Origin: Salinivenus sp.
GTDB lineage: Bacteria; Bacteroidota; Rhodothermia; Rhodothermales; Salinibacteraceae
Direction of reading: 5' to 3'
Assembly: GCA_018609755.1 (NCBI GenBank)
Contig: JAHENZ010000276.1
Location: 1 to 33,701 of the forward strand
Length of the DNA stretch: 33,701 nucleotides
Made by a program: the position numbers and the translations under genes. The notes under the pieces are model-generated. The model had not been told where the DNA came from, searched no databases, and worked only from the letters and a program-made list of their open reading frames with translations. Of this stretch, positions 2,471 to 18,053 are shown one piece after another; position 1 is the stretch's first letter; each line of letters opens with the position of its first letter.

Positions 2471-2600
2471 CTAGTGGTGCGTCAAGTTTTCCATGTCGAG
2501 TAGAGCACCGATCAATGAACGGCATTCAGGCCGTTGAAGCGGCATTCAAGTGGGCATACTCAATTCGACACCCGACACCTTCGGCTTGACTGACCACTAG
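2471..2600 (+). mobile_element. MITE-like inverted-repeat element, copy A
   Basis: A 130-bp non-coding element beginning CTAGTGGTGCGTCAAG. Its end, read on the opposite strand, begins CTAGTGGTCAGTCAAG, so the terminal inverted repeats match at 14 of 16 positions. A weaker match (TGTCG.GT) continues in register to about base 31. A second copy lies at 15985-16115, about 82% identical by hand alignment with a single 1-base gap and the same orientation. No transposase is encoded, so it would depend on an IS transposase elsewhere in the genome. I see no clean direct target duplication; the CTAG at each end could be part of the repeat or of the target. It sits in intergenic DNA, as such elements usually do. 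Confidence 0.75.
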
Positions 2601-2667
2601 CAACCTGTTGCGCATTGGGGTTTGGAAGCTCGCCCGAGCGAATTTTTTGCACTACGAATACTCTGAA

Positions 2668-2681
2668 AGGGAAATTTCCCT
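2668..2681. promoter_or_regulatory. Perfect 14-bp palindrome, possible operator
   Basis: AGGGAAATTTCCCT reads identically on both strands. It lies in an AT-rich stretch about 220 bp before the TMEM220-like gene that heads the ebo genes. A dimeric regulator site is plausible, but a chance palindrome cannot be excluded. Confidence 0.3.
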
Positions 2682-2899
2682 CACCTGCCAAATTATCTCC
2701 AATGCATTTGGTATTTTTAGAAGCAAGTGTGAAGGTGAGTCTATGCGCAACAGCCTGCTAGGTCGAAACCCGCGCCGACCGATCCGACGGAAGCAACTCC
2801 AAACCCGTCGTTCTCGGTCCCCATCCTTCGGCGAACCTGCCCCCTTTGGATGCGTGCGATGAGATCGCGATCTTTCGTACTCAAAACGTCGGCTAGCGC

Positions 2900-14963: not shown

Positions 14964-15899
14964 TCAGGCGTCAAACGAATCCACCGACACATACGCGTCG
15001 ATCACAGCTTGCTCGCCCGATTTTCCGTCCATCGAGGCCCCGTGCTCCATCCCCACGATGCCCTCATACCCCTTCTCGTGGAGGTGCTTGAACACGTTAC
15101 GGAAATTAATTTCACCAGTGGTGGGCTCATTCCGGCCCGGGTGATCCCCCACTTGGACGTAGGCAATCTCGTCCCACGCCGCGTCGAGGTTGGGAATCAG
15201 GTTGCCCTCCGTAATCTGCTGATGGTACGCGTCGTAGAGAATCTTACAGGAGGGGCTGTCGACCGCCCGGCAAATTTCGTAGGCCTGAGCGGTATGAGTC
15301 AGAAACTGATTCGGGTGATCGCGGCGGTTATTGAGCGGCTCTAAGACCATCACCAAGTCGTGCGGCTCCAAAATCGCGGCCGCCTCGCGGAGCGTCTCGA
15401 TGAGATTCGCCCGCTGGTAGCCTTCGTCCAGGCGGAGATCACGGGCCCCGGGCACGACGGTCATCCACGTAGCGTTGACCCGCTGCGCCACTTCCACAGA
15501 CTCCCGAATCTCGTCGAGAAACTTCTGCCGGGGCTCGTCTTCGCCCGTCACCAGGGCCGGCTCGCCCCAACTGATCGAGTGCGCCACAAAGACGCCCATC
15601 TGCATGTTATGCTCTTCCAGGGCCCCTGCGATTCGTGTTTGCGTCCGTTTCGACCGGCCCTTCATTCCGTTGTCCTCCAACGCCGAAAAGCCGTGCTCGG
15701 CCATAAACGAAATCTGATCCACCGGATCCGACCCAGCGTGTGCTTCAAAGAGCCCAAAGTGGGGCGCATAGTTCAGATGAAAGTCCGCCGTTGGCTCTGA
15801 ACGAAACAGTGAAGACGCCACTGCATCCGTCGCGCCGGACGTGCCCAGGAGAGTTCCGCCCGCCAACGCACTCCGTCGTAAAAAATGACGCCGATTCAT
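14964..15899 (-). CDS. Tat-exported hydroxypyruvate-isomerase-like TIM-barrel protein
   Basis: A 311-residue sugar isomerase/epimerase-like protein closest to hydroxypyruvate isomerase (Hyi). ATG 15899 opens into NRRHFLRRSALAGG, a twin-arginine signal. The longer frame from 15917 adds six residues of little value. The barrel residues expected for a divalent metal are Glu187 (VLEPLN), Asp223 and His226 (YDAYHQQ) and Glu285 (GMEHG). The signature GDHPGRNEPTTGEINF (residues 251-266) is the Hyi hallmark. The reaction is probably an aldose-ketose or hydroxypyruvate-type isomerisation in the periplasm, but the substrate is unknown. It lies downstream of susD on the same strand, with a MITE-like element between them, and converges with apbE. 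Confidence 0.88.
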   Translation of the reverse strand: MNRRHFLRRSALAGGTLLGTSGATDAVASSLFRSEPTADFHLNYAPHFGLFEAHAGSDPVDQISFMAEHGFSALEDNGMKGRSKRTQTRIAGALEEHNMQMGVFVAHSISWGEPALVTGEDEPRQKFLDEIRESVEVAQRVNATWMTVVPGARDLRLDEGYQRANLIETLREAAAILEPHDLVMVLEPLNNRRDHPNQFLTHTAQAYEICRAVDSPSCKILYDAYHQQITEGNLIPNLDAAWDEIAYVQVGDHPGRNEPTTGEINFRNVFKHLHEKGYEGIVGMEHGASMDGKSGEQAVIDAYVSVDSFDA

Positions 15900-15984
15900 A
15901 ACCGCTCTGCTGCACAACTCAAGTCAAAAAACGAGCTTCCCACAAAACGACCGTACGCCCGGCCCGCAGGGAATACGGACCGGG

Positions 15985-16115
15985 CAAGTGGTGCGTCAAG
16001 TTTTCCACGTCGAGTCGATCGTTGATCGATGGACTGGTATTCAGCCCATTGAAGCAGCATTCAGATCAACGTATTCAATTCGACACCTGACATCTTCGAC
16101 TTGACTGACCACTAG
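15985..16115 (+). mobile_element. MITE-like inverted-repeat element, copy B
   Basis: A 131-bp second copy of the element at 2471-2600, in the same orientation and about 82% identical. Both ends are the best-conserved parts. The left end reads CAAGTGGTGCGTCAAG and the right end, on the other strand, CTAGTGGTCAGTCAAG. The left CTAG has become CAAG. It lies between the start of the Hyi-like gene and the end of susD, both on the minus strand, so a transcript running out of susD would pass through it and could fold its ends together. Confidence 0.75.
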
Positions 16116-16175: not shown

Positions 16176-18053
16176 CTAATTACAGAGCGGATTCTGCGCC
16201 TCTCCGAGATTGGGATTCCGGTTGACTTCGTCATTGGGGAACGGCAAGAAGTAGTTGCAGTCGTCCCACTCCCGTTCCTGTAGATTGATGACCTTGTAGG
16301 AGTAGTCGTACATGTCCTGAGCAATGAGCTCTCCGAGACTCAGGTCCGAACTTGGACTGCCGGTGAGTTCCCCCGTGATCTCGATGGCGTGCGCATCCTG
16401 GTAGGCTTCTTCCCCAATCATCCAGCGGCGCACGTCGAAGTAGCGGTGCCCCTCGAAGGCCAGCTCCACCTCGCGCTCCTGCCGAATTTCCTCCAGGAGT
16501 TCAGTCTGATCGCTAGTGGTCACGTCCGGCATGCCCACGCGAGAACGCACTTTGTTCAAGGCCTGACGGGCCGTTCCCAGTTGCCCGAGATTGGCCGCGG
16601 CCTCCGCCTTGTTCAGCAGCACCTCGGCGTACCGAAGATAAATCCAGGGATTGTATGCCTGCTCGTTATTCGGCACAATGTCACGGTCGACGAACTTGCG
16701 CAGGTTGTATCCGGTCTGCGAAGAGTTCCAGGACTGCGGCCCTGCATCGGTGTCGAGCCCGCCCTGCATACTTCCGTCCTGCATCTCGTACACGCCCGTC
16801 TGGACCACTCCCACCGGATCGGTCGAGCGGGGCGTGCCCGCCGGACGCTCTCGCCAATCGTTCCCGTTAAACTGAATGTTGGCTTTGAGGCGAGGATCGC
16901 GCTCCTCGTACGGGTTCTCGGCCTGTACGGGATCTCGGTCCGGCGCCTGTTCTTCGGGGTTCGGAAGGCTCGGATCGCCCCCTTCCCACTGAAAGTCGGA
17001 GCCGTCCGCCATCTCGTAGGCGTTCACGTGCTGCTGCGTCGGCGTGTCGCCCGACCACGAGAAGTACCCATTGGGACTGACAAACTGGGACTGGTTGTGG
17101 TTGAAGTCGGCGTCCGCATCGAAGTATCGCGCCCAGATGGTGCCGTTCGGATTTCCCTTCGTGAACAGCCGGTGATACTCCTCAGACGACAGATTCTGTT
17201 CGAGGCCGTGGGGCCACACGTCGATCACGGCCTGAGCAGCATCGAGGGCCGCCTGCCACCGATCCATTTGGTTCCCGCTCGTGTGGCTCACGTACTGCGC
17301 CACGTCGCTACCGCTAAACGGACTGTCGTTGTACAAATCGCTCGCCGAGTAGAGGAGCACGCGAGACTTTAGGGCTCGTGCGGCGGCTTCCGTCGCAGCT
17401 CCCTGACGCCGGGCCTCCTTGCCCGCCAGCAACGTGGCCGAGGAGTCGAGGTCCGACACGATGAAGTCGATGGTTTCGGGGAAGGTGTTTCGTTCCACCT
17501 GATATTGCTGTTCTCCCGATCCCAGCTCAAAGACCTGCTTGACGAGGGGAACACCGCCGTAGAGCTTCATGAGGTTCTGATAGAAGAATCCCCGCAGGAA
17601 GTAGGCCTCTCCCAAAAGCTGCTCCCTCTGGTCGGGGGGGACTTGCTCGTTCCCCTTCACATTCTGAATGAAGAGATTCAGGTCCCGAATCGACGACCAG
17701 ACGCTGCCCCAGTTGTATCCCTGATAGTATGGATCGTCGGCCGCACGCCACCCCGGGGCGTCCCAGATGCCCCGATCCCCAGGGGACACGTTGGACATAA
17801 TGTTCTGCGTGCCGGGGTGACCGTGCGTGTTGTAGGCCTCGTCCGTGACACCGGGCGTCTGCATCGGGTCGCCGAACCCGATTCCCGTTCGGGTATAGAT
17901 CTGATTTAGGTACGACTGTGCGAGAGCCGGATCCTCAAACACCTGATCGGCCTCAAATTCATCTTTGGGACTCAAATTCAGACTGTCGCAGCCCGCCAGA
18001 AGTAGCAGTGAGCCGACAAAGGAGAACGTGATGATGCGTGTCAATGATCTCAT
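16176..18053 (-). CDS. SusD/RagB family outer-membrane nutrient-binding lipoprotein
   Basis: A 625-residue surface lipoprotein that captures glycan and forms a lid over its SusC partner. The lipoprotein signal is ITFSFVGSLLLLAGC with Cys22 as the lipidated residue, followed by DSLNLSPKDEF, an acidic stretch suited to surface export. The N-terminal SusD-like half contains ALAQSYLNQIYTRTG. The C-terminal RagB/SusD domain shows the classic ALNKVRSRVGMP, IRQEREVELAFEGHRYFDVRRW and a Tyr-rich end. The length is a little above the usual 500-600. The start at 18053 gives a compact signal with Arg2 and Arg6. It follows susC by 121 bp that hold a strong hairpin, the usual SusC-SusD order. Confidence 0.95.
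   Translation of the reverse strand: MRSLTRIITFSFVGSLLLLAGCDSLNLSPKDEFEADQVFEDPALAQSYLNQIYTRTGIGFGDPMQTPGVTDEAYNTHGHPGTQNIMSNVSPGDRGIWDAPGWRAADDPYYQGYNWGSVWSSIRDLNLFIQNVKGNEQVPPDQREQLLGEAYFLRGFFYQNLMKLYGGVPLVKQVFELGSGEQQYQVERNTFPETIDFIVSDLDSSATLLAGKEARRQGAATEAAARALKSRVLLYSASDLYNDSPFSGSDVAQYVSHTSGNQMDRWQAALDAAQAVIDVWPHGLEQNLSSEEYHRLFTKGNPNGTIWARYFDADADFNHNQSQFVSPNGYFSWSGDTPTQQHVNAYEMADGSDFQWEGGDPSLPNPEEQAPDRDPVQAENPYEERDPRLKANIQFNGNDWRERPAGTPRSTDPVGVVQTGVYEMQDGSMQGGLDTDAGPQSWNSSQTGYNLRKFVDRDIVPNNEQAYNPWIYLRYAEVLLNKAEAAANLGQLGTARQALNKVRSRVGMPDVTTSDQTELLEEIRQEREVELAFEGHRYFDVRRWMIGEEAYQDAHAIEITGELTGSPSSDLSLGELIAQDMYDYSYKVINLQEREWDDCNYFLPFPNDEVNRNPNLGEAQNPLCN

Follow-up and report, generated by a model that had tools for sequence, protein, structure and literature searches.

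The window, a stretch of 33,701 nucleotides from a Salinivenus sp. draft genome (5.0 Mb, 328 contigs), carries two copies of a short repeat that we call family A. The first lies downstream of ispG (GcpE, 1081-2298) and the second between susD (16176-18053, minus strand) and a gene for an AP_endonuc_2 TIM-barrel protein (14964-15917, minus strand). Both copies are outside genes and family A has no coding capacity, as the original prediction had described them. They were found where that prediction had placed them, at 2471-2600 and 15985-16115, with the ends given there, and its estimate of about 82% identity agrees with the computed 82% over 128-129 bases. The predicted extent of about 130 bp was right in location and needs refining at its boundaries, since the limits took in the target CTAG; when the TA duplication is allowed for, the element proper measures 124 bp in copy 1 and 125 bp in copy 2 (Table 1). 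Copy 1 carries the inverted terminal 16-mers CTAGTGGTGCGTCAAG and CTAGTGGTCAGTCAAG without a mismatch, whereas copy 2 begins with CAAG instead of CTAG. Directly abutting copy 1 is a second, distinct element (D) that had escaped the first reading.

Table 1. Coordinates of family A and of other CTAG-ended elements (window positions unless a locus is named)
Feature	Position	Strand	Remarks
Family A copy 1, element proper	2474..2597	+	inverted repeats at the ends: GTGGTGCGTCAAG / GTGGTCAGTCAAG
Left CTAG of copy 1	2471..2474	.	C of the target, TA of the duplication and the element's first G
Right CTAG of copy 1	2597..2600	.	common to copy 1 and the abutting element D
Family A copy 2	15988..16112	+	older subgroup, 82% identity to copy 1
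Left target site of copy 2	15985..15988	.	degenerate, CAAG
Right CTAG of copy 2	16112..16115	.	
Element D, distinct, CTAG-ended, non-coding, 165 bp	2597..2761	+	ends CTAGCAACCTGTTGCGCAT / CTAGCAGGCTGTTGCGCAT; abuts copy 1
Family B copies	L035 1038-1269; L016 1401-1642; L074 8661-8834; L088 6385-6628		
Family C copies	L156 7730-7902; L150 265-440		

Copy number, distribution and target site of family A

Copy 1 has 42 matches in its own genome, 40 of them at 91-100% identity. The motif GTGGTSMGTCAAGTY occurs 55 times in this genome and its reversed control not at all, and the 16-base end CTAGTGGTNNGTCAAG, with up to 2 mismatches allowed, occurs 97+99 = 196 times against 21+26 = 47 for the reversed control. 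The end repeats are therefore far beyond chance, and these counts of end patterns suggest a family total of roughly 75-100 copies in the 5.0-Mb assembly. We read 67 distinct copies with their flanks, which are unrelated to one another, and the many copies with variable flanks that a mobile element should show are thus present. Family A is about 124 bp long and non-coding, with 13-bp bipartite terminal repeats (ends TAGTGGTGCGTCAAG / TAGTGGTCAGTCAAG, pattern TA-GTGGT-NN-GTCAAG); the 67 copies include a subgroup with CTAGTGCT ends. Among the 48 full-length copies of the main group, 35 match the consensus at 90% identity or more and the other 13, at 63-83%, are older; copy 2 of the window falls in this older layer. 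One copy (L153, 12855-12982) apparently lies inside a protein-coding frame that is open across the joined flanks.

Outside this genome family A is sparse. When 12 further genomes of the genus were surveyed, divergent copies of full length (69-79%) turned up in two and one weak partial match in a third, and the remaining nine had none; there were zero matches in the other sampled genomes of the family and order. An exact end match was present in the named relative 'Bacteroidetes bacterium SW_9_63_38', whose name, together with the gene content, suggests a Salinibacter-like genus.

The pre-insertion state was found at one paralogous and two orthologous sites, each with a single CTAG where the element sits. 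The paralogous empty site (L139, contig C253) reads CCGCTAGAGGCACGC, and its filled counterpart (L013, contig C266) reads CCGCTAG-element-CTAGAGGCACGC. For the site L012 (contig C277), the orthologues L177, L180, L181 and L174 (genomes G008, G001, G012 and G011) have CTAG without the element, as do L165, L166, L168 and L169 (genomes G010, G003, G004 and G008) for the site L028 (contig C91); at these two orthologous sites the alignment is good on the coding side and poor on the intergenic side. The target was therefore a pre-existing CTAG, and the comparison with loci lacking the element, proposed in the original prediction as a way to find the target duplication, points to a duplication of TA. 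The outer neighbour of the TA differs from consensus at 16 of 134 ends, compared with 5 of 134 for the first or last base of the element itself (Fisher p 0.02); targets other than CTAG are so few that this test of TA versus CTAG has limited power. In each of the nine copies that have T on the left, the inner right end retains C. The data favour, with modest statistical support, the central TA as the duplicated unit, with C-TA-G preferred, rather than the whole CTAG. The same preference for TA within CTAG is attributed to IS630 (Tenzen and Ohtsubo 1991, as cited in PMC2170065).

Type of mobile element and candidate transposases

The original prediction of a miniature inverted-repeat transposable element (MITE) holds on the strength of the many copies, unrelated flanks, empty sites and ISs with matching ends; the family, which it had left unnamed, can now be assigned to the IS630 type (Tc1/mariner superfamily), and we put the probability of this assignment at about 0.88. 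IS630-family ISs whose ends match the terminal repeat, the kind of partner that had been suggested for it, exist in the same order. Those at L199 and L201, with several copies in each of two genomes, have ends TAGTGCTG[TC]GTCAAG (full readings CTAGTGCTG[TC]GTCAAG and CTAGTGC[TC]G[CT]GTCAAG), and an IS of the same genus, at L202, has the end TAGTGGTCAGTCAAC (longer reading CTAGTGGTCAGTCAAC). The reading frames of all three match PF13358 (DDE_3), and the ISs are likewise flanked by C-TA-G. In the 14 positions that follow the TA, they are identical to the MITE ends at 12-13, against a maximum of 11 among 39,276 background TA sites. Further in lies a second block, TGTCGRGT in the MITE and TGACGGGT or TGTCGGAT in the ISs, where the best pairs agree at 10-11 of 18 positions.

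In the own genome, searched as a 328-contig draft, no IS with exactly the family A ends was found. The IS630 elements with readable ends there differ from family A (C84, TACTGCACTGTCAAC; C236, TAGTACCGCGTCAGG), and for a third IS630 match (C211) no ends were resolved. Since the assembly is a draft, the cognate IS may be missing from it, may have been lost, or may never have been present. What is identified is the type of IS that moved family A, and mobilisation in trans is therefore something we infer. A related IS, present in the cell today or in the past, would supply an IS630-type transposase that binds the element ends, excises the element at its TA borders and joins it to the TA of another CTAG.

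The best-surviving alternative, which we nevertheless consider improbable, is that an IS5-family (IS427-like) transposase mobilises the MITE, in which case a 4-bp CTAG or 2-bp TA duplication is expected. MITEPsy1 of Pseudomonas syringae, whose insertions at CTAG or YTAA produce a 4-bp duplication (PMC3189936), offers a precedent, and the genus does contain CTAG-bounded IS5-type ISs of about 915-955 bp (L111 1379-2293, L104 1004-1959, L109 855-1809). Two transposase families in the genus thus share the target, so CTAG alone names no transposase. However, the ends of the IS5-type elements (CTAGGTCGTACTGAC, CTAGGCACTGTTTGA) are unlike those of family A, whereas the IS630 ends match closely, and the outermost base is apparently not duplicated. 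Transposases matching PF01609, PF13340 and PF13546 were also considered as candidates in the own genome and two relatives; they yielded CTAG-ended IS5-type elements, none with family A ends.

The alternative offered by the original prediction, a structured interspersed RNA/DNA repeat, is still less probable; such a repeat would be maintained because it serves the host (like REP, ERIC or BOX, or in mRNA processing or termination). Single copies do fold better than shuffled sequences (z -3.1 to -4.5), but the consensus fold consists of terminal-repeat pairs and one adjoining helix: 6 of its 12 pairs are the outermost terminal-repeat pairs, and its one compensatory column is also in the terminal repeat. 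Any MITE would be expected to show consensus pairing mostly in its terminal repeats. The consensus fold of family A revealed no conserved RNA structure with covariation in the interior, the interior diverges freely, an Rfam search gave no match, and 10 of the 12 other genomes of the genus have no copy or a single weak partial match. About a quarter of the insertions lie directly at the TAG ending a long reading frame, and this TAG survives the insertion, which could be taken as a sign of function; yet ordinary CTAGs occupy this position at a similar rate (14/51 versus 28/137 and 51/226). A targeting of stop codons, suggested by 17 flanks in which a frame of at least 150 codons ends exactly at the TAG, was rejected for the same reason. 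Few insertions occur at CTAGs that lie within long frames in the other phases. The structured-repeat explanation is refuted, in its present form, by the freely diverging interior. Ordinary segmental duplication of one locus, which two similar copies within one window might suggest, is refuted by the 67 distinct copies, their unrelated flanks and the precise empty sites, and its likelihood is negligible. Family A, read as an IS630-type MITE, is best accounted for as selfish mobile DNA tolerated at harmless sites.

Chains of elements at a scarce target

CTAG was observed 200 times, where base composition would predict 1170 and a Markov model 379. Because CTAG is scarce, element ends form a sizeable share of the available sites. 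Of the 67 family A copies, 28 directly abut another CTAG-ended element, either family A itself or one of B, C and D. Element D, which shares the right CTAG of copy 1, has further copies at L156, L027 and L017 (77-87%). Family B is CTAG-ended and non-coding, about 170-240 bp long, with ends CTAGTGGWCTGTTAC, and often adjoins family A; family C is CTAG-ended too, measures about 175 bp, has the ends CTAGTG..CTTGCACAAC and adjoins family A in about ten places. A partial match to element D (ends GCAACCTGTTGCGCAT / GCAGGCTGTTGCGCAT) was noticed beside the IS5-type IS in L111.

Each insertion leaves a CTAG at both ends, and these ends would serve as new landing sites, so that elements of different families would pile up head to tail, sharing one CTAG. 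We tentatively raise the possibility, without counting it as likely, that several unrelated MITE families of the genus share the CTAG target with element ends as preferred landing sites, and that the resulting self-propagating chains restrict most insertions to a limited group of harmless sites that keeps regenerating. The locus shows different MITE families chained at a scarce palindromic target.

Comparison with known systems

The ISs at L199, L201 and L202 resemble family A in their terminal repeats and in the TA between C and G; unlike family A they are autonomous, measure 1.2-1.3 kb and carry a first reading frame in addition to the DDE_3 reading frame. IS630 of Shigella sonnei, as cited in PMC2170065, also inserts into the TA within CTAG, but it is an autonomous IS, and the likeness noted is one of target site. 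MITEPsy1 is a 100-bp bacterial MITE that inserts at CTAG, yet it is probably of IS5 type, with a 4-bp duplication, use of YTAA and other ends (PMC3189936). The closest known system is RUP of Streptococcus pneumoniae, a 107-bp non-coding, intergenic repeat with about 100 copies and TA at its termini, whose ends resemble those of IS630-Spn1, the IS630-family IS to which its movement in trans is ascribed (PMC2229807). Family A shares with RUP the short non-coding, intergenic, multi-copy form, the TA termini and the IS630-like ends, a likeness at the level of description. It differs in its host, in a target that is specifically the TA of CTAG, in being one of several abutting families, and in that matching ISs were found only in relatives. 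A literature search for MITEs in Salinibacter found no report. Mobile DNA of this kind is well known; as a new family of it, family A adds to the Salinibacter group what is very probably an IS630-type MITE family, together with its target site, its empty sites and candidate autonomous relatives.
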